A stretch of DNA of 64,000 bases from Terriglobales bacterium. GTDB taxonomy: Bacteria; Acidobacteriota; Terriglobia; Terriglobales; Acidobacteriaceae. Within the stretch, counting starts at the first letter, position 1. Each line of letters opens with the position of its first letter. Location: NCBI GenBank assembly GCA_035651995.1, contig DASRER010000043.1:62001-126000 (forward strand), given 5' to 3'. The position numbers and the translations under genes were made by a program. The notes beneath the pieces were generated by a model. That model saw only the letters and a list, made by a program, of their open reading frames with translations, made no database searches and had not been told where the DNA came from. Below are positions 35,195 through 53,673 of the stretch, one piece after another.

Positions 35195-35317
35195 GCCGAA
35201 TTGCCGAACGGCGGAACTCCCGAAGTTAGAACCTCAAAAGTGTCCTAGCCGTCACCAATTCCTTGAAGGAGGTTGAATTTCAATTCGGCAATTCGGCAGT
35301 TCCGCAGTTCCGCAATC
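35195..35317. repeat. Intergenic hairpin element with GCCGAATT words
   Basis: GCCGAATTGCCGAACGGCGG AACTCC (35195-35220) faces CAATTCGGCAATTCGGCAG then TTCCGCAGTTCCGC (35281-35313), which is its near complement built of the same words. It fills the convergent gap between mqnE and the ECF42-type sigma and could serve as a two-way transcription stop. Confidence 0.7.
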
Positions 35318-36620
35318 AGAGGCACTCTCCAAGCTTCCTCTTCAGAAACCTCCTCTCCGGCTCCGAGCACGGCAGCTCCAGTGCACGCCGATACGACTCC
35401 GCGGCAGCGGCGCGGTCGCCGGCGTCGAGCAGCAGGCGCGCGCGCACGGAAAAAAACAGGTAGTACTTGTTCATCCATGGTGAGGTGCCGAGGGGTTCGA
35501 GTTCCGTCAGCGCCGCGCGCGGGCCGCGGACTTTGCTGACGGCCACGGCGCGGTTCAGCGCGACCACCGGCGACGGATTCAGCGCGAGGAGCTGGTCGTA
35601 GAGCGCCAGGATCGCCTTCCAGTCAGTGGCACTCGGGTCCTTGGCGCGGGCGTGGACGGACGCGATCGCTGCCTGCACGTGGTACTCGGAAATCACATCG
35701 CCGGCTGCGCACTGAGTGAAGTGGTGGAAACCGAGCGAGACCAGGCGCTCGTCCCAGCGGGCGCGGTCCTGGTCATCGAGCAGGACCAGGTCGCCGCGCT
35801 CGTCGGTGCGCGCGGGCAGGCGCGCGGCCTGGAAGGCCATGAGCGCGACCAGCGCGTGCGCCGTGGGCGGTCCCAGCGCGGACGCCGCCACCAGCCGGCC
35901 AAGCCGTAGCGCTTCGCGGCAGAGATCCTGTCGCACCAGGTCTTCGCCCTCGTGCGCGGCGTAGCCCTCGTTGAACATCAGGTAGATCACTTCCAGTACC
36001 GAATCGAGGCGCTCGGCGAGTTCCGGGCCGCGTGGCAGCTCGAAGCTGAGCTGAAGCTGCTTGATCTGCTTCTTGGCGCGCACCAGGCGCTGCGCGATGG
36101 TGGGTTCTTCGGCGAGGAACGCGCGCGCCACCTCGCGCACGCTGAAGCCGCCCACGGTTTTCAGGCTGAGGGCGACGCGGGCGTCGCGCGGCAGCGCGGG
36201 ATGGCAGCACATGAAGACCATGCGCAGCTCATCGTCGCGAAGGTCGGTGCTCATAGCGGGCTCGCTGCGCGACTTGCTCCGCTCGAGTTCGGCGGCAATG
36301 GCCGCAGACTTCTGGGCGAAGACCGAGTTGCGCCGCACGACGTCGAGCGCGGCGTTGCGCGCGGCCTGGAAGAGCCATCCGGCGGGATTTTCCGGGATGC
36401 CGCTGTAAGGCCACTTCTGCAGCGCCTTGAGCAGCGCCTCCTGCACCACTTCTTCGGCCAGTTCCAGGTGCTCGGGGCCGAGAAGCCGTGTGAGGTAGGC
36501 GACCATCTGTCCCGCGCGGCTCCGAAACAGATGGTCCACCATGCCGGCGACCTGGGGCTCGGAGCCCGCGGTCGCGGGTCGGGCATTGCTCAGGGCCGCC
36601 GCTTCGCCTGCGAGATCCAT
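35316..36620 (-). CDS. ECF42-type sigma factor with C-terminal TPR-like domain
   Basis: The 434-residue protein has sigma region 2 (LLGPEHLELAEEVVQEALLK, then WLFQAARNAALDVVRRNS) and region 4 (KTVGGFSVREVARAFLAEEP), then a long helical extension (VLEVIYLMFNEGYAAHEGED and TDWKAILALYDQLLALNPSP) typical of the DUF6596-bearing ECF42 group. Members have no classical anti-sigma and are instead encoded beside YCII/DGPF proteins, exactly as here: the ATG at 36620 overlaps the stop of the YCII gene (TGATG). GGGAGG precedes the start. What the extension senses is unknown in general. Confidence 0.93.
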   Translation of the reverse strand: MDLAGEAAALSNARPATAGSEPQVAGMVDHLFRSRAGQMVAYLTRLLGPEHLELAEEVVQEALLKALQKWPYSGIPENPAGWLFQAARNAALDVVRRNSVFAQKSAAIAAELERSKSRSEPAMSTDLRDDELRMVFMCCHPALPRDARVALSLKTVGGFSVREVARAFLAEEPTIAQRLVRAKKQIKQLQLSFELPRGPELAERLDSVLEVIYLMFNEGYAAHEGEDLVRQDLCREALRLGRLVAASALGPPTAHALVALMAFQAARLPARTDERGDLVLLDDQDRARWDERLVSLGFHHFTQCAAGDVISEYHVQAAIASVHARAKDPSATDWKAILALYDQLLALNPSPVVALNRAVAVSKVRGPRAALTELEPLGTSPWMNKYYLFFSVRARLLLDAGDRAAAAESYRRALELPCSEPERRFLKRKLGECL

Positions 36621-36973
36621 CAGCCTCCCAGGTTGTCCACCTCGCGGACTTCGATGGTGCCGCCGAAGCCGAGGTGCGGATGGTCCTTGGAGCGTTCCAC
36701 CGCCTGGTTGTAGTCGGAGGCCTCAATCAGGTAGTAGCCGCCGAGCACTTCCTTGGTCTCGCTGTAGGGACCGTCGGTGACGCGGGCGTTGGTCTTGCCG
36801 CGAAGCACCTTGCCCACGTCGTTGGTGAGTTTGTGGCTGCCTTTCAGGAAGCCGGACTGGCTGGCCTTCATGCCCCAGGCCACGTATTTCTCGATGGCCT
36901 TCTGCATTTCTTCCGGGCTGAACTTCATCCAGTCGGCCGGGTTGGCGTAGAGCAATAGAAGATATTGCGCCAT
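36620..36973 (-). CDS. YCII/DGPF-domain protein, partner of ECF42 sigma
   Basis: The 117-residue protein opens with AQYLLLLYANPADWMKF and contains the family signature DGPYSETKEVLGGYYLIEA. YCII-related proteins are small ferredoxin-like dimers; in ECF42 operons they are thought to act with the sigma, but the reaction is unknown. AAGGAG sits 10 nt before ATG at 36973. It overlaps the sigma start by 1 nt and follows the 173-residue exported-protein gene by 18 nt, so the three genes probably form one operon. Confidence 0.93.
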   Translation of the reverse strand: MAQYLLLLYANPADWMKFSPEEMQKAIEKYVAWGMKASQSGFLKGSHKLTNDVGKVLRGKTNARVTDGPYSETKEVLGGYYLIEASDYNQAVERSKDHPHLGFGGTIEVREVDNLGG

Positions 36974-36991: not shown

Positions 36992-37513
36992 TTATCGGAC
37001 GCGAGTGTACGTCACGTCTTCGGTGAACTTGGTTTTGCCGGCCTCGACGAACTGCCAGTTGCTGGAGAAGTGGTCGGGGTCGGTGAATTTGAATCTGGCG
37101 GTGTGCATGTGTCCGGCGCCGGGGGCGATGTTGGAGCCGCCGGCGAAGTCGAACGCCAGGTCGCCGGTTGCGGGCGAGAAGCGGCGCGCCGTCATGCGCG
37201 GCTGGTTGCCGGCCATGCAGTAGTGCGTGAGCACCAGGTTGCCGTTTTCCAGCGTGTACATGGTCACCATCTCCTGCTCGGGATGGTTCACGAAGTTGAA
37301 GCGTTCGAGCACAGCCGACCCGCTGGCGATCACCTTGTAGCTGATGGTGGCGTCGCCCTGCGGCGTGCCCTTGCTCTCCCAGTTGCCTTCCAACGACTTG
37401 ATGCGCTGGAAGGCCGCGGTGGCCGCGTCCTTGCTCAGGGCGGGCTTTTCCGCTGCCATCGCGCAGACCGGCAGCAGAAGCGCAATTGCCGCCGGAATCC
37501 AATGCTTTCTCAT
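36992..37513 (-). CDS. Exported DUF1579-like protein
   Basis: ATG at 37513 follows GGGAGAGGACG and gives a 173-residue protein with a signal peptide (KHWIPAAIALLLPVCAMAA). The mature part, starting FQRIKSLEGNWESKGTPQGD, resembles the DUF1579/lipocalin-like proteins that often open with LEGxWxG. The strand ATISYKVIASGSAVLERFNF and the end KTKFTEDVTYTRVR fit a small beta-barrel. The frame stays open to 37738 but that extension crosses repeat sequence. It is the first gene of the run with YCII and ECF42, so it may be a target or sensor of that regulon; this is inference. Confidence 0.82.
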   Translation of the reverse strand: MRKHWIPAAIALLLPVCAMAAEKPALSKDAATAAFQRIKSLEGNWESKGTPQGDATISYKVIASGSAVLERFNFVNHPEQEMVTMYTLENGNLVLTHYCMAGNQPRMTARRFSPATGDLAFDFAGGSNIAPGAGHMHTARFKFTDPDHFSSNWQFVEAGKTKFTEDVTYTRVR

Positions 37514-37689
37514 CGTCCTCTCCCGGGGAGCTGCCCTTCGGAAGCAGGCGCTCCGTTCCTTTCGCCCGGTAAACGAAGGAAAGACGTGGGAATCGACACG
37601 ACGGCTCAACTTTATTTGGGGATTAAGACGTGCGCTGGGTGTCCGCCAGGTGCCTGCAGAGGAACAAATGCCGGCCCTCGCTCCGGGGT

Positions 37690-37745
37690 CGTGGCGGACC
37701 CTGGACTGCGTGGCGCGGACGCCCTCGTCGGCGCCCACCCGGCTT
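37690..37745. repeat. Copy of dispersed GTGGCGCGGACGCC core
   Basis: GACTGCGTGGCGCGGACGCC at 37704-37723 matches the copies at about 1202-1220 (plus) and 8653-8672 (minus). The surrounding 37514-37750 segment has no gene of convincing character. Confidence 0.6.
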
Positions 37746-37752
37746 GAAGACG

Positions 37753-38040
37753 GACCCTGACAGCGACCGGCGCCGGTTGCCGCGCCTTCGGCGCCCGACA
37801 GAACCGCTGTTCGTCACATTTCACACACTCGGATGTGCGGAGCTTCCCCCGGATGCTCGCGACGTGCGCTCCAATGCGTCCTGCGCGAGCACGCCTTCAG
37901 GGTGCATCTGCACGCTGCGGTGGTGATGCGGGAGCATTTGCATCTTCTCTTCAGTCCGCAGCGGAATGCTGACGGGAACGCCCACAGCCTGCGAACGATC
38001 ATGCAGGCCATCCCGAGCGTCTCGGCCCGCCAGGAGGATG
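37753..38040 (+). pseudogene. Frameshifted remnant of a REP-associated tyrosine transposase (RAYT/Y1)
   Basis: One frame reads PTEPLFVTFHTLGCAELPPDARD (about 37795-37863), like the start of Y1/RAYT transposases (xYFVTFxT). A +1 frame then reads LQCVLREHAFRVHLHAAVVM and MREHLHLLFSP, the position of the HUH-type metal motif (here H-x-H after HL; family consensus is MPNHVHLL). SLRTIMQAIPSVSAR follows, matching the SLxxIMQxxKxxSA helix of the family. The downstream catalytic tyrosine region is not recognisable. A single-base shift near 37862-37875 and missing ends make it a pseudogene. Confidence 0.7.
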
Positions 38041-38224
38041 CCTTGGCAAGGCAAATCGTGAGCTGCTGCGGGCTGGAAAATGCAACCGTTGTTCACGCTT
38101 GCGCTTCTATGGACAAGACGGATGTACAATCCCTGCAACTTCCGTCCCCGGAGTCGGCTGTTTTGCTCCTGGGGACGGCTGCCACGCGGAACTGGCGGGA
38201 TCTCTTGTTTCCCCCGAGGCTCCC

Positions 38225-39265
38225 ATGAACGTGCATATCAGCTACAAGGTCCCGAAGTCGCCCGACATCGAGCACGTCTTCCGTCAAAACATCGAGAAGT
38301 TGCGGCGTCGCTTGCAGGTGTTCAAGCCTGAGCTGGTGCATCTGCATGCGGTGCTGGAACAGAGCTCGGCGCGCGAAGGGTTCGTGGTGTCGCTGAATCT
38401 GCGTTTGCCTTCCGGGCAGATGGCCGCCCGGGAAGCGGCGAACGGCGCGGTGCCGGTGATCAAGTCGGGATTCGAGCACCTGCTCGACGAGGTCTCGAAG
38501 CACAAGGACTTGCTGCGCAGCGAGCAGAAGTGGGTTCGCCGGCGGCGCGTGGGCCGCGCGCTCTCGCCGCAGGTGCCGTTCGAACAGACGCTGGCGGCGG
38601 TCCATCCGCCGCAAGCCACGGTGGAAGACATCAGCTCGTGGCTGAACACGAATCTGCCGCGGCTGCGGCGTTACCTGGAGCGCGAACTGCGCTTCCGGCG
38701 CAACAGCGGCCAATGGGTGCCGCTGGACGTCACGCCGGCGGAGGTCCTGGACCAGCTCGTCGCCATGGCCCTCGACGATCGGCATCGTCCCGAGGCGCTG
38801 GCGCTGGAGCCCTGGCTGTTCCGGCTGGCGCAGAAGGCGATTGCCGAAGTGGTGCGCGGCGCGCATGAGCCCGCCGAGACCATTCCGTTGGAGGAGTCGG
38901 CGCGCCGGCAGAACGTGAACGGCAGCGACGAGCCGCACCTGCAGTTCCATCAGCCCGATGAGCGGCTGACGCGCGAAGATGTGATTCCCAACGGCGGCGC
39001 CAGTCCGGAGCAGATCGCCGCCTCCGACGAAATCATTGACCAGATCGAGGCGGCGCTGAAGGATGCTTCGCCCCTGGAACGCAACGCCTTTATCCTGTTC
39101 GCCATCGAAGGCTTCACGCCGGAAGAGATTGCCTCCATCAGCGACCACAAGGTCGAGGAAGTGAAGGCATCGGTTGAGTCCGCCCGCGAGAGGCTGCGAA
39201 AATCGGTGGTGAACGCCAGCAGCAAGTTCATCAGCAAGCTGCTCGAACACTCACGCATCGCCTGA
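38225..39265 (+). CDS. HPF/RaiA-like ribosome-hibernation domain fused to sigma-factor-like regions
   Basis: ATG at 38225 (GAGG 6 nt upstream) gives 346 residues. Residues 1-105 look like the ribosome hibernation-promoting factor/RaiA fold: MNVHISYKVPKSPDIEHVF, then VHLHAVLEQSSAREGFVVSL and LRLPSGQMAAREAANGAVPV, ending GFEHLLDEVSKHKDLLRSE. After a basic linker, residues 130-225 resemble a degenerate sigma region 2 (RPEALALEPWLFRLAQKAIA). Residues ~270-335 resemble sigma region 4: QIEAALKDASPLERNAFILF, EGFTPEEIASISDHKVEEVK. A single protein could therefore bind ribosomes and also core polymerase or DNA. The next gene encodes a release-factor-like protein 23 nt away, in one operon. Confidence 0.8.
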   Translation: MNVHISYKVPKSPDIEHVFRQNIEKLRRRLQVFKPELVHLHAVLEQSSAREGFVVSLNLRLPSGQMAAREAANGAVPVIKSGFEHLLDEVSKHKDLLRSEQKWVRRRRVGRALSPQVPFEQTLAAVHPPQATVEDISSWLNTNLPRLRRYLERELRFRRNSGQWVPLDVTPAEVLDQLVAMALDDRHRPEALALEPWLFRLAQKAIAEVVRGAHEPAETIPLEESARRQNVNGSDEPHLQFHQPDERLTREDVIPNGGASPEQIAASDEIIDQIEAALKDASPLERNAFILFAIEGFTPEEIASISDHKVEEVKASVESARERLRKSVVNASSKFISKLLEHSRIA

Positions 39266-39288
39266 TTTCCCCAACAGGAGCCGGCCGC

Positions 39289-40455
39289 ATGATGACGCGC
39301 GAAGAGCTTCGTACGTTGGCTGCTTTTGAGTCGCCGGAACACGGCGCCATTTCCTTCTACTTCCAGCCGTGGAAGCCGCGCGACCAGTCGCATCGCGACG
39401 AGAGCATCCTCGTCCGCGACCTGGTGCGCGCCGCCGAGCGGAGTGCGGACGGCCGCAAATCGCCGTCACGCGCCGACTTCGACCGGATCATGGCGCTTTC
39501 CGAGACACTGAAAAGCAATCACTCGCAGGCCAAGGCGGTGTTTGCCTGCGAGAGGGCGGGCCTTTGGCGTGAACTGGATTTGCCGGCCCGCCTGCCCCGC
39601 ACGGAACTGTTCGTGAACCGGCGGCTGCATCTTCGTCCGCTGGCGGCGCTGCTCGACTCGGTGCCCCGGGCGGCGGTGGCGATCGTGGACCGCAAGCGCG
39701 CTCGCCTTTTCGACTTCTGCATGGACGAGATTACCGAGTTCGCTGATTTCCAGAGTGACATGCCGCGAATGGGCCGCAGCAGCTACGGCTACCAGGGCTA
39801 CAACGCCGGGCACGTGGAGCGGCACGCCGAATATCACGCGATGCAGCACTTCAAGTACGTGGCCGACCGCTTGCTCGAGCGCTACGGCAACGGCAACGGC
39901 TTCGAGAAGCTGATCGTGGGATGCCGCGACGAAGTGTGGCCTGAGATCGAGGCCCAGCTCCATCCTTACCTGCGGAATGCGCTGGTGGGCCGGTTCTCGA
40001 TGGACGTGGCTACGGCCGTGACCGAAGACGTCCGGCGGCAGGCGGCGCGCATCCTGGAAGCTGACCTGGCAAACCATCGCAGCGGGCTGGTGCGCGAGGT
40101 GCTCGGGCAGGCGCGGCGCAACGGCGCCGGCTCGGTCGGCCTGCGGCACGTGCTGGCGTCGCTGGAGCGCGCCGAGGTGCAGGCGCTGCTGGTTGGGTCG
40201 CGCTTCACGGCGGCGGCGGTGGAGTGCTCCAACTGCGGCCACGTGGACACGCGCATGGTGCGCGAATGCGCCGTCTGCGCGCATCCCACGCGCGAACTCG
40301 ACGACGTGGTCGACGCCCTGGTGTCCCTGGCGCTGCGCAACAGCGCCGAGATTCTCTACGTGAGTGACGACGCCGAATTTGAGCGCGCCGGAAACGTTGG
40401 CGCGCTGCTCCGCTTCCGCGCCGACCAGAGGACTGCCGACAAGGTGGCAAGTTAG
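39289..40455 (+). CDS. Archaeo-eukaryotic release factor 1-like protein (Balon/Rv2629 group)
   Basis: The 388-residue product has the three-domain layout of bacterial aRF1/Pelota-like proteins. Domain 1 opens LRTLAAFESPEHGAISFYFQ. The middle domain starts AVAIVDRKRARLFDF (about 129-143), and its loop GYQGYNAGHVERHAE (167-181) sits where release factors carry GGQ; GGQ itself is absent. VADRLLERYGNGNGFEKLIV follows. The C-terminal L7Ae-like domain has a zinc ribbon with Cys313, Cys316, Cys327 and Cys330, and ends GNVGALLRFRADQ as in Rv2629-type proteins. This predicts A-site binding without peptide release, i.e. hibernation or rescue. AGGAG lies 9 nt before ATG. Confidence 0.82.
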   Translation: MMTREELRTLAAFESPEHGAISFYFQPWKPRDQSHRDESILVRDLVRAAERSADGRKSPSRADFDRIMALSETLKSNHSQAKAVFACERAGLWRELDLPARLPRTELFVNRRLHLRPLAALLDSVPRAAVAIVDRKRARLFDFCMDEITEFADFQSDMPRMGRSSYGYQGYNAGHVERHAEYHAMQHFKYVADRLLERYGNGNGFEKLIVGCRDEVWPEIEAQLHPYLRNALVGRFSMDVATAVTEDVRRQAARILEADLANHRSGLVREVLGQARRNGAGSVGLRHVLASLERAEVQALLVGSRFTAAAVECSNCGHVDTRMVRECAVCAHPTRELDDVVDALVSLALRNSAEILYVSDDAEFERAGNVGALLRFRADQRTADKVAS

Positions 40456-40461
40456 TTGATT

Positions 40462-40592
40462 CTCATGCTGGGCGAGGCCCGCGTCTTCCTGCGGGCCGAG
40501 CCGAAGCATCCCTGCTCCACCTGCTCTGCGGGGCACGGCAGGGGGTCCTTCGACTCGCCCGCGCGGAGCCCGCTGGCTTCGTTCAGGATGAC
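40462..40592. repeat. REP-like inverted-repeat element (copy D)
   Basis: Read on the minus strand it begins GTCATCCTGAACGAAGCCAG, continues with GAGTCGAAGGACCCCCTGCC and AGCAGGGATGCTTCGGCTCG, and ends CGGGCCTCGCCCAGCATGAG, matching copy A (988-1120) block for block. It lies downstream of the release-factor-like gene. Confidence 0.75.
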
Positions 40593-40669
40593 TTCCCAAG
40601 GGATTTTCGTCCGTTCCCCCTCGCCCTCCTCCGGGTGTTATGCTTTCCAGTTTTCCTGGAGCAGAACTC

Positions 40670-41908
40670 ATGAAATTTTCTCGCCGCGATTTTATCGGCA
40701 GCGCTGCCCTCGGCTCAGCTTCGCTCGCGTTCGGACTGGAGGCGCAGGAACGCAAAGAAACCGACCACAAGCCGGCGCAGTCGAAGACCGAGGCCGTTGC
40801 GCCGTCGGGGAAGCGTCCGGTGGTGATCTGCGCCAACAACGGGCGCAACTACATCGAGCGCGGATACGAGATCGTGAGCAAGGGCGGCGACACCCTCGAA
40901 GCGGTCATGTCCGTCATCCGCGGCCCGGAAGACGACCCCAACGACACCAGTGTGGGCCTGGGCGGGCTTCCGAATGAAGAAGGCGTGGTGGAGCTGGATT
41001 CATGCTGCATGCACGGGCCTACTCGGCGTGCCGGCTCGGTCGGCGGCGTGCGCAACATCAAGAACGTCTCCCTGCTCGCCAAGGCCGTGATGGAGCACAC
41101 CGGCCACGTGATGCTCGTGGGAGAAGGCGCCGAGCGCTTCGCGTACGCCATGGGCTTTCCCAAGGAGAACTTGCTGACCGAACACTCGCGCAAGGTCTGG
41201 CTGCTGTGGAAGGAGATGCGCTCGAACCAGGACTGGTGGGGTCCGGGCATTGCCGATCCCAATTGGAAGCCGCCCACCACGCCGCCCGCGGCGCCAGCGT
41301 CGGAGCAGTGGCGCGAGCGCATAAAGAAGATGGAAGAGATGGCGGCCGGCCTGGGCATCGCGCCGGAACTGCGCTTGGCGGCAATCGAGGCGGTGCTCTA
41401 TCCGCCGCACGGAACGATCAATTGTTCGGTCGTCAACGAAAAGGGCGAGATGAGCAGCGCCACCACCACCAGCGGCCTGGCGTGGAAGCTGCCGGGGCGC
41501 TGCGGCGATTCGCCGATCCTCGGCGCCGGCTGCTGGTGCGACCAGGACGTGGGCTCGGCGGGCGCGACCGGCAGCGGGGAAGAGAACATCAAGGTGGCGG
41601 GCGCGCACACCATCGTGGAGAACATGCGCCACGGCATGTCGCCGCGCGAGGCCGGCCTGGACGCGCTCAAGCGCATTGCCCGCAATCACAACAACGACAT
41701 GACCCGGCTGCGCTATCTCGACATGGTGTACTACATCCTGCGCAAGGACGGCGCGTACGCGGGCGTCTCGCTGTGGAGCGGCAGCGCGGAGCGTCCGCGG
41801 CGCTTTGCCGTGCACGACGGCACGGCGCGGTCGGAAGACTGCGTGCCGCTGTTCCAGGGCGCGCCCATCGCCTGGCCGCCCACGCCGAGGCTGCCGAAAG
41901 AGAGCTAG
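40670..41908 (+). CDS. Tat-exported N4-glycosylasparaginase/isoaspartyl peptidase family protein
   Basis: The N-terminus MKFSRRDFIGSAALGSASLA is a twin-arginine signal, so the enzyme is exported folded. The body is an Ntn-hydrolase of the asparaginase-2 family: GGDTLEAVMSVIRGPEDDP, GLGGLPNEEGVVELDSCCM, then the autocleavage site PPHGTINCSVVNEKGEMSSA, where the Thr of HGTI would be the nucleophile. TSGLAWKLPGRCGDSPILG and CWCDQDVGSAGATGSGEENI form the substrate site. ATG at 40670 is preceded by CTGGAG. It may remove N-linked asparagine or isoaspartyl groups in the periplasm; the substrate is not certain. Confidence 0.9.
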   Translation: MKFSRRDFIGSAALGSASLAFGLEAQERKETDHKPAQSKTEAVAPSGKRPVVICANNGRNYIERGYEIVSKGGDTLEAVMSVIRGPEDDPNDTSVGLGGLPNEEGVVELDSCCMHGPTRRAGSVGGVRNIKNVSLLAKAVMEHTGHVMLVGEGAERFAYAMGFPKENLLTEHSRKVWLLWKEMRSNQDWWGPGIADPNWKPPTTPPAAPASEQWRERIKKMEEMAAGLGIAPELRLAAIEAVLYPPHGTINCSVVNEKGEMSSATTTSGLAWKLPGRCGDSPILGAGCWCDQDVGSAGATGSGEENIKVAGAHTIVENMRHGMSPREAGLDALKRIARNHNNDMTRLRYLDMVYYILRKDGAYAGVSLWSGSAERPRRFAVHDGTARSEDCVPLFQGAPIAWPPTPRLPKES

Positions 41909-51811: not shown

Positions 51812-51963
51812 CCCACTAATGTAACGGACGCAGTCGCTGGTACCAACGCCCGCGGGGCACGGCGTCGCCCGCGGCGCTGGTGTAAAATTTCTGTTTCCGC
51901 GCCCGCGTCGCGACCAGACCGTCAGCCGCCCATCACTCGAACCAGGAAGGCGGAACACGCACG

Positions 51964-53673
51964 ATGAATGCCGGCAAGCCCATCTCGGGATACGTGACCT
52001 TTGTCCTGCACGCGCACCTGCCCTACGTGGTGCATCACGGCACCTGGCCGCACGGGCAGGACTGGCTGCACGAGGCGGCGGCGGAAACCTATGTGCCGCT
52101 GCTGCGCGTGTTCGCGGAGCTGGAAGGGCGCCGCACTCCCCTCAAGTGCAACTTGAACCTTTCGCCGGTCCTGCTGGAGCAGATGGCGCTTCCGGACTTC
52201 AAGGCTGGGTTCGAAAGCTACCTGCGCCAGAAAATCGAGGCGGCCCGCAAAGACCGCAGGCACTTCGAAGCCAAGGGCCAGGGACACTTCACAAGGCTGG
52301 CGCAGTTCTGGGCCGATTTCTACGAAGGCGTTGCGCGCGACTTCGCCGCGCTGGGCGGCGACCTGATCGCCGGCTTTAAGCGCTACTACGACTCCGGCTC
52401 GATCGAGATCATCACCTGCGGCGCCACCCACGGCTATTTCGCGCTGCTCGGCGCCGACGCCTCCATCCGCGCGCAGGTGCGCGTCGGCGTGGAGACCCAC
52501 CAGCGCTTCTTCGGCCGCAGGCCGCGCGGCATTTGGCTGCCCGAGTGCGCCTACCGGCCCGCGGGACCATGGCGGTATCCGGTGCCGGTGGATGGATTGC
52601 GCGGCCCGTTCCAGCGTTCGGGCGTGGAGCAGGTCCTGGCCGAGTACGGCATCGAGTTCTTCTTCGTCGACACGCACCTGGTCGAGAAGAACGTGCGCTT
52701 CACGCCGTACGAGGTCCTCGCCGGCGACGTGCCCGTGGCTGTCGAGGAACAGGCGCGCGACGGCGGCCCGTCGGTCTATCTCCCGTACTACGCCGATACG
52801 CCCACGCGCGACCGCGCGCGCGTCGCGTTTTTCACCCGCGACGCCCGCACCGGCATTCAGGTGTGGAGCGGCATGCACGGATATCCCGGCGATCCGGTGT
52901 ATCTGGAATTTCACAAGAAGCACTGGCCGGGCGGCCATCGCTACTGGCAGGTCACGCAGTCGCAGCTCGACCTGGGCGCCAAGACGCCGTACTTTCCCGA
53001 GATCGCGCAGCAGCAGACGCAGGTGCACGGCCGCCACTTCGTGGAAACCACGCGCAACGTGCTGGAATACGACGCGCCGCACAGCGAGGGCGTTCCGCCT
53101 GTTCTCTGCGCTCCATTCGACGCCGAACTGTTCGGCCACTGGTGGTTCGAAGGCCCGTCGTGGCTGAAGCATGTCGCCATCGAAGCGCACCGGCCGGATT
53201 CGGGCATCGAGCTGGTCACCGCGCCCGAGTACCTGGCGCGGCAGAAGCCGGCGGGATTTGTGCCGCTGCCTGAAGGTTCCTGGGGACGCAACGGGACGCA
53301 CGAAGTCTGGCTGAATCGTGACACCGAGTGGACGTGGAAGCACATCTACCAGGCGGAGCTGGCGGTGCAGCAGTTGGTGCAGAGCGGCCGCTGGCGCGAG
53401 TCGGAGGAGGCGCGCCGGCTGGCCACGCAGATTGTCCGCGAGCTGCTGCTGCTGGAGTCGAGCGACTGGCAATTCCTCATCACCACCGAACACGCCCGCG
53501 ACTACGCCGAGAAGCGCTTCAACGAACACCTCACCGGCTTCAACGAGCTGCTCGGGGGCTGGCGCCAGTTCGAGGCGGCCGGGAAGGTTCCCGAGCAGAC
53601 GCGTCGCAGGCTGGAAGAGCTGGAGCGCGTGGATTCCGTCTTCCCCGAGATCACGCCTGAGGTCTTCGCCTAG
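51964..53673 (+). CDS. GH57 family 1,4-alpha-glucan branching enzyme-type protein
   Basis: The 569-residue protein has the GH57 signatures: FVLHAHLPYVVHHG (motif 1), GIWLPECAYRPAG with the catalytic glutamate, and APFDAELFGHWWFEGP with the acid aspartate. EIITCGATHGYFALL and FFFVDTHLVEKN are further conserved segments. A helical C-terminal domain (ELLLLESSDWQFLITTEHA, ARDYAEKRFNEHLTGFNELL) matches the GH57 branching-enzyme type (DUF1957). It probably makes alpha-1,6 branches in glycogen-like storage polymers. It is divergent from mazG and lies 64 nt upstream of glpD on the same strand. Confidence 0.93.
   Translation: MNAGKPISGYVTFVLHAHLPYVVHHGTWPHGQDWLHEAAAETYVPLLRVFAELEGRRTPLKCNLNLSPVLLEQMALPDFKAGFESYLRQKIEAARKDRRHFEAKGQGHFTRLAQFWADFYEGVARDFAALGGDLIAGFKRYYDSGSIEIITCGATHGYFALLGADASIRAQVRVGVETHQRFFGRRPRGIWLPECAYRPAGPWRYPVPVDGLRGPFQRSGVEQVLAEYGIEFFFVDTHLVEKNVRFTPYEVLAGDVPVAVEEQARDGGPSVYLPYYADTPTRDRARVAFFTRDARTGIQVWSGMHGYPGDPVYLEFHKKHWPGGHRYWQVTQSQLDLGAKTPYFPEIAQQQTQVHGRHFVETTRNVLEYDAPHSEGVPPVLCAPFDAELFGHWWFEGPSWLKHVAIEAHRPDSGIELVTAPEYLARQKPAGFVPLPEGSWGRNGTHEVWLNRDTEWTWKHIYQAELAVQQLVQSGRWRESEEARRLATQIVRELLLLESSDWQFLITTEHARDYAEKRFNEHLTGFNELLGGWRQFEAAGKVPEQTRRRLEELERVDSVFPEITPEVFA

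Follow-up and report, generated by a model that had tools for sequence, protein, structure and literature searches.

The window analyzed here is a 64,000-nucleotide stretch of DNA from a Terriglobales bacterium (Acidobacteriota), located on contig C43 of a genome of 3.66 Mb in 48 contigs. It carries two adjacent genes on the forward strand, A and B, with 23 nt between the stop of A and the start of B. Gene A encodes a hibernation promoting factor (HPF/RaiA) domain joined to regions 2 and 4 resembling those of extracytoplasmic function (ECF) sigma factors, and proteins of this architecture are called fusions below. Gene B encodes a Balon-type homologue of aeRF1.

Relatives were collected with patterns taken from f1 sequences, and the best 80 of the 125 relatives found, all from metagenome genomes of Acidobacteriota/Terriglobia, were taken as the named loci. 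Since these loci were found through f1 patterns, the sample leans to close kin. After removal of near copies, 59 of 78 usable loci and the window formed an alignment of A with 60 rows, and 51 of the 53 sequences kept (67 usable) and the window formed an alignment of B with 52 rows. The following features were recognized:

38120..38130, + strand: promoter-like -10 box GGATGTACAAT, the window's variant of the CGGGTGTAnAAT box found upstream of the operon in relatives
38225..39265, + strand: gene A (HPF domain, sigma2-like domain, QPDE linker and sigma4-like domain), 346 aa, ATG at 38225 and TGA ending at 39265
38225..38539, + strand: HPF/RaiA domain of A, residues 1-105, with H93, K94 and R98 invariant (60/60), placed by profile, model and Pfam
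38615..38869, + strand: sigma region 2-like domain of A, residues 131-215, with the region 2.2-type acidic motif largely kept and Asn 204 and the basic tail lost
38930..38962, + strand: linker motif L-Q-F-H-Q-P-D-E of A, within residues 236-246, of low predicted order
38999..39220, + strand: sigma region 4-like domain of A, residues 259-332, with the recognition helix partly eroded
39289..40455, + strand: gene B, Balon-type aeRF1 homologue (Pfam baeRF_family10), 388 aa, ATG at 39289 and stop at 40455
39784..39822, + strand: loop of B aligned with the GGQ region of aRF1, residues 166-178, with no Gln at the GGQ place
40225..40278, + strand: zinc ribbon of B, Cys 313/316/327/330 (CxxC...CxxC), invariant (52/52)

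Fold and family of the two proteins

When a profile of residues 1-105 of A (28 sequences) was compared with the PDB, 20 of the 22 matches (E ≤ 10) were chains of the HPF/RaiA family, the best with an E-value of 4.6 × 10−5. The S30AE domain (PF02482) was found in 58/60 fusion sequences and in all ten members of a deliberately diverse set of fusions (E ≤ 0.01), eight of the ten scoring above the Pfam cut-off. The N-terminal part of the AlphaFold model of A has the beta-alpha-beta-beta-beta-alpha topology of HPF, with block values of the predicted local distance difference test (pLDDT) of 89-98 over residues 1-100. Its top structural match was the RaiA chain 8rd8_D (Z 15.3; root-mean-square deviation (rmsd) 1.3 Å over 98 residues), from a structure of RaiA together with Balon on the Psychrobacter ribosome. 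A match to HPF by chance was ruled out by the PDB profile matches, the structural overlay and the S30AE count. The HPF domain is also the best conserved part of A (mean column entropy 0.96, against 1.24 for sigma2 and 1.40 for sigma4), and its fold predicts binding in the 30S channel and a block of translation. When PF02482 was applied to the window's protein A alone, nothing was observed at E ≤ 1, and a search of the window's genome with this model missed gene A. The sole find was an ordinary HPF of 198 aa elsewhere in the genome, and A is thus an additional HPF.

The model PF18854 (baeRF_family10) matched protein B with an E-value of 1.4 × 10−21 (77.7 bits; cut-off 27.1), and B was the only match to this family in the window's genome (E ≤ 0.001). 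The AlphaFold model of B (mean pLDDT 89.7) matched the Balon Msmeg1130 with Z 31.7 (rmsd 3.0 Å, 360 residues) and the Balon of P. urativorans with Z 24.9, and the match to aRF1 (4af1) was lower (Z 17.7). Both the model overlay and PF18854 give B the three-domain fold of aeRF1/Pelota. The loop aligned with the GGQ region ends in G-H in 51/52 rows and in G-R in 1/52, with Gln in none. NIKS was found in 0/52, and GGQ occurs in one row only, at residue 126 and away from the catalytic loop. B falls outside the Balon equivalog models NF052288, NF052289 and NF052287, with scores of 47.7, 31.8 and 27.7 bits, respectively, far under the cut-offs of 480, 320 and 330 bits.

The initial annotation had read A as an HPF/RaiA-like domain joined to sigma regions 2 and 4, and B, 23 nt downstream, as an aRF1/Pelota-like protein with a zinc ribbon and no GGQ. 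Both readings were confirmed, for A by the profile, S30AE, TIGR02937 (see below) and the model overlays, and for B by the Balon match and the four cysteines. The structure prediction it proposed as a check returned HPF for residues 1-105 and Balon for B.

Pairing of A and B and spread of the fusion

B lies directly downstream of A in 75 of the 80 named Terriglobia loci, 21-124 bp past the end of the A match (the gap was counted from there and not from the A stop). Among the five loci without B, L073 and L103 run into a contig edge 47 and 370 bp downstream, and L080, L109 and L126 lack B. A strong B match (E ≤ 1 × 10−30) was observed in 18/61 genomes. In 17 of them it directly follows a fusion gene, or an HPF-only gene in the case of G059; in the remaining one, G056, the B gene is divided between the ends of two contigs, and the part with its start adjoins the fusion. 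Clustering of neighbors was done for the 38 long loci among the 80 (L080, L109 and L126 are outside this sample), and only A, B and one downstream gene recurred on the same strand in more than half of them. The co-occurrence in other genomes that the initial annotation had named as a check was found. Fold, family and conserved gene order together give good support to a gene pair for ribosome hibernation that has been kept in evolution.

Among more distant acidobacterial fusions, B was mostly not found within flanks of 1.5 kb, some of them cut by contig ends, and in G428 it is present 302 bp away. The gene caller missed the fusion in L218, L220 and L222, and no absence of B is claimed there. 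No relatives of A or B were found in viral contigs.

A tree was drawn from 69 HPF domains, in which 39 fusions (12 of the 60 alignment rows, 8 of family f2, 11 other acidobacterial and 8 proteobacterial) and the HPF-only protein of G059 were split from 29 ordinary acidobacterial HPFs by a branch with 100/100 support. The tree is based on 113 columns, leaves many forks unresolved and is rooted for drawing only; the canonical HPFs of L250 and L255 were dropped owing to their short flanks. The G059 protein is placed with the f1/f2 fusions (97/85), so this gene has probably lost its sigma half, with B retained beside it, and the combination of HPF and B looks like the lasting core.

When tblastn was used, 23 plasmid records with relatives of the fusion were observed, at least 18 of which cover at least 80 % of the query. 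Twelve records were examined, and the carriers whose taxonomy was read are Alpha- or Betaproteobacteria. In all ten annotated loci the fusion stands among stress genes (Hsp20, FtsH, AAA ATPase, HdeD, YfdX or GroEL/DnaK). Islands with such genes are called the transmissible locus of stress tolerance (tLST). One further record examined had no annotation. The megaplasmid of Methylorubrum extorquens AM1 carries a homologue of the fusion with yfdX1 within 4 kb. Existing annotations call the fusion sigma-70, sigma-28, FliA, sigma-like or hypothetical. The fusions form a real family that spans Acidobacteriota and Pseudomonadota, so that Acidobacteriota, the scope set in the initial annotation, was correct and too narrow, as proteobacterial plasmids carry the fusion as well.

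Several side observations were made around these loci. In the plasmids L166, L168, L227, L228, L230 and L231, an AAA ATPase gene, which we take to be ClpK/ClpG-like, is directly followed by the fusion (annotated sigma-70 or FliA) and then by hdeD. In the Burkholderiaceae plasmids L167, L171 and L229, the fusion lies near three Hsp20 genes and GroES/GroEL, with DnaK in L171 and L229. A gene that we assume to encode a pyridoxal phosphate (PLP)-dependent aminotransferase adjoins the distant acidobacterial fusions of L216, L219 and L224 in the place of B. In L226 (4975-6538), an HPF-only gene (122 aa) precedes a baeRF gene by about 40 bp, and its HPF groups with the fusions, so that the sigma half appears to have been lost. 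The window carries, after B and in the same orientation, a gene (40640-41908) that we presume to encode a glycosylasparaginase, a homologue of which is near in 32 of the 38 long loci. This gene does not clearly belong to the operon.

The sigma-derived half of A and the upstream box

The ECF sigma-70 superfamily model TIGR02937 matched residues 141-326 of A with 43.6 bits, just above the cut-off of 42.9, and reached E ≤ 1 × 10−6 in 51/60 fusions. At E ≤ 0.01, Sigma70_r4_2 and PF22233 (PhyR_sigma-like) were each found in 60/60 fusions and Sigma70_r2 in only 2/60. For the window's protein A, PF22233 (2.1 × 10−8) was better than Sigma70_r4_2 (4 × 10−4); across the fusions, the best E-values were 7.1 × 10−11 for Sigma70_r4_2 and 8 × 10−9 for the PhyR model. 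When residues 132-332 of the model were overlaid on known structures, RpoE (5uxx, Z 12.9), CnrH (Z 11.7) and sigma-like chains of PhyR (Z 11.1 and 10.4) were obtained. By TIGR02937 score and fold, ECF regions 2 and 4 are present in A. The QPDE linker, for which the model of A gives no fold, was found in 57/60 Terriglobia fusions and in most other lineages too, and is degenerate in family f2.

Residues were compared in an alignment of 25 fusions with 17 proteins of the sigma-70/ECF family from the window's genome (one gapped in region 4), and counts were also taken over 60 Terriglobia fusions and 24 fusions of other lineages. Positions 204, 316, 314 and 321 and the basic tail are presumably readers of promoter DNA, as in ECF sigma factors. 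Asn 204 is present in 11/17 controls, against 2/60 Terriglobia and 1/24 other-lineage fusions, and Arg 316 in 8/17 controls, against 0/60 and 2/24, respectively. The 12 residues from 203 onward carry an average net charge of +2.06 in the 17 controls and -0.44 in the 25 fusions. The region 2.2 motif is largely kept in the Terriglobia fusions, with E/D173 in 60/60 and E177 in 57/60. In the promoter-reading features tested (region 2.4 Asn, basic tail and recognition-helix Arg), A departs from ECF sigma factors. As promoter-reading residues are eroded in the 60 and 24 fusions, the sigma-derived half is probably not an ordinary promoter-reading sigma.

The region upstream of A was also analyzed. 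The pattern G[TA]GTA[CGA]AAT was found within 130 nt upstream in 59/59 relatives, and the window was fitted with its own variant pattern; some of the invariance of the box columns comes from the search pattern itself. The distance from the CGGGTGTAnAAT-type box to the ATG is 48-77 nt in the 59 relatives and, for the variant in the window, 94 nt. GGTGTA[CGA]AAT occurs in 54/60 operon upstream regions and once elsewhere in 690,964 bases. When 41 genomes were searched with GGGTGTASAATC, 18 copies were observed (15 genomes hit; none in the window's genome), against 3 for the backwards pattern. Five copies are at the operon and 13 elsewhere, three of the latter preceding one gene family in sister genomes. 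Twelve of the 13 non-operon copies are 20-150 nt before an open reading frame (ORF) of at least 200 aa, compared with 24 % for positions drawn at random from the same loci. The idea of CGGGTGTAnAAT as an operon-specific element was overturned by the 13 of 18 exact GGGTGTASAATC copies found elsewhere. A box that stands before ORFs of no relation to the operon is probably a general and strong promoter element, and we draw no tie between it and the sigma half of A. GGGTGTA[CG]AATC was also seen before the operon and before unrelated Terriglobia ORFs (L172, L174, L179 and L181-L189). Elsewhere in the window (51879-51964), there is one further box of this kind (GGTGTAAAAT), about 75 bp upstream of a probable gene of glycoside hydrolase family 57 (GH57), which could be chance.

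Other elements were sought around the operon. Many relatives show, on visual inspection, an inverted repeat ahead of the ribosome-binding site, but it was rejected as evidence for a leader RNA. RNAalifold predicted no base pairs for one set of 32 leaders, and the 13 pairs predicted for 21 others include no double-sided change. The Rfam search of 37500-41000 gave nothing at E ≤ 0.1, the sigma-70 consensus scan of 37700-40900 gave none, and terminator-like sites in 37700-40900 numbered 6 against 2.9 in shuffles. On the minus strand, the window also carries an ECF sigma gene preceded by a small gene of the DGPF/YCII type (35316-36973), a pair that resembles the ECF42 arrangement.

Comparison with known systems and interpretation

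According to PMC10901736, Balon genes most often adjoin RaiA, alternative sigma-70 factors are also among the neighbors of Balon, and RaiA and Balon occupy one ribosome together in Psychrobacter. Like Balon (Psychrobacter Balon, Msmeg1130 and Rv2629), which is found with RaiA, B has this fold without NIKS and the GGQ loop and adjoins an HPF-type gene. Unlike Balon, it is a baeRF_family10 protein with a four-Cys zinc ribbon, far under the equivalog cut-offs, and the HPF protein it is paired with has a sigma-like half. Residues 1-105 of A share the fold of HPF/RaiA/YfiA with H93, K94 and R98 invariant, whereas A is set apart by the 100/100 branch and its C-terminal sigma-derived domain. ECF sigma factors resemble A in the folds of regions 2 and 4 and in much of the region 2.2 acidic motif, and differ from it in that A has several eroded DNA-reading positions, an N-terminal HPF and a conserved QPDE linker. 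A also resembles the sigma-like domain of PhyR in its match to PF22233 and its degenerate recognition helix; however, the N-terminal part of A is HPF, and no receiver domain was among its Pfam matches at E ≤ 1. Archaeal HibA is likewise an HPF fused to a second module, but this is a ribosome-binding CBS module, and its ribosome binding was observed by cryo-EM (PMC13324472). In the alphaproteobacterial heat-resistance islands of the tLST type, the fusion genes come after an AAA ATPase gene and before hdeD, whereas the Terriglobia fusion is paired with B.

Gene neighborhoods of baeRF and HPF were noted in 2019 (PMC6514570), and one tLST island is reported to encode a 'sigma 24 like' factor (PMC8290217), which may or may not be identical with the fusion. 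Some of the alternative sigma-70 neighbors of Balon in PMC10901736 could be HPF-sigma fusions. In the open-access literature, no description of an HPF-sigma fusion was found among the matches listed, and the earlier opinion that the fusion is functionally undescribed stands to that extent. The HPF-Balon pairing and the fusion of HPF to another module are known already.

We prefer to read A as a hibernation factor in which the sigma-derived domain serves for docking, either to core RNA polymerase or to a sigma regulator, and for this statement as a whole we put the probability at about one half. That A and B hibernate ribosomes together is very likely. Under stress, the HPF domain of A would sit in the mRNA/tRNA channel of the 30S subunit and B in the A site, by analogy with RaiA and Balon in Psychrobacter. 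The sigma-derived domain, which has kept much of the region 2.2-type surface and the QPDE linker and has lost several promoter-reading residues, would dock on core RNA polymerase or a sigma regulator, and this is the least certain step. Through such docking, idle ribosomes may restrain or report to transcription, rather than A starting promoters of its own. The link between ribosome status and transcription that the initial annotation had suggested for A is plausible. It is possible, and rather doubtful, that A is a dual-machine hibernation factor in which the HPF domain binds the idle ribosome and a DNA-blind sigma-derived domain binds core RNA polymerase, shutting down or coupling both.

Several observations weigh against the docking of a sigma-derived domain as part of a ribosome-hibernating pair. 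No B match was found in 6/22 f1 genomes and 13/13 f2 genomes with a strong fusion match, so that the pairing is not obligatory. The B profile also gave no match within 8-10 kb in six plasmid loci (the tree includes 8 plasmid fusions, 5 of which were scanned; L227-L232 were judged by annotation). Some DNA-contact features are kept, with Arg/Lys 314 in 36/60 fusions and Arg 321 in 56/60. In the window's protein A, Gln replaces Glu at 177. Position 176 is Gln in 14/17 controls and Asp in 49/60 fusions, and in the 24 other-lineage fusions position 173 is acidic in 14/24 and position 177 in 18/24. The model of A has a predicted template modeling (pTM) score of 0.53 and an unreliable domain-to-domain arrangement, and its geometry was left unused.

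If A were instead a genuine alternative sigma, with the N-terminal HPF as a sensor, ribosome binding would withhold or release A and ribosome occupancy would set its regulon. The TIGR02937 score above the cut-off in the window's protein and the matches in 51/60 fusions would fit this, as would the residues mostly kept at 314 and 321, and N-terminal extensions of ECF factors have been described, with their mechanism unstudied (PMC8103513). However, Asn 204 and Arg 316 are lost, the charge is reversed, and in G002, G007 and G016, where no strong fusion match was found, the operon box also stands before unrelated ORFs, so it looks more like a general promoter element than a target of A. This takes a point from the explanation. 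We consider it unlikely. The same eroded residues would be expected of a PhyR-like decoy, which binds an anti-sigma and frees another sigma while HPF ties the switch to the state of the ribosome. The PF22233 matches in 60/60 fusions, better than Sigma70_r4_2 in the window's protein, and the PhyR chains among the structural matches point in this direction, but the family-wide best E-value belongs to Sigma70_r4_2 and not to the PhyR model, and TIGR02937 matches 51/60 members against 30/60 for the latter. Only A, B and one downstream gene are frequent in the 38 loci, the rarer neighbors being unidentified and NepR not having been searched for. The probability of such a decoy is low.

A sigma-derived domain without a role in transcription could also replace the C-terminal domain of long HPF on the ribosome, for contact with rRNA, dimerization or contact with B. 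HPF is the better conserved part of A, the other HPF of the genome has the length of a long HPF (198 aa), the HPF-only relative is still paired with B, and there is the precedent of HPF with a ribosome-binding CBS module in HibA (PMC13324472). Such a role is nevertheless quite improbable, as two phyla have kept sigma4 signatures and a large part of the region 2.2 motif, neither of which a bare spacer would need.

The fusion family is easily overlooked, as it is annotated as sigma, FliA or hypothetical and PF02482 misses A in its own genome. The homologue on the megaplasmid of Methylorubrum extorquens AM1 opens the family to experiment, and the presence of the fusion within plasmid heat-resistance islands suggests that these include an arm for ribosome protection. 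Hibernation of the ribosome and of RNA polymerase is usually treated as separate pathways, and a protein of HPF and a sigma-derived domain would provide a handle on their coordination.

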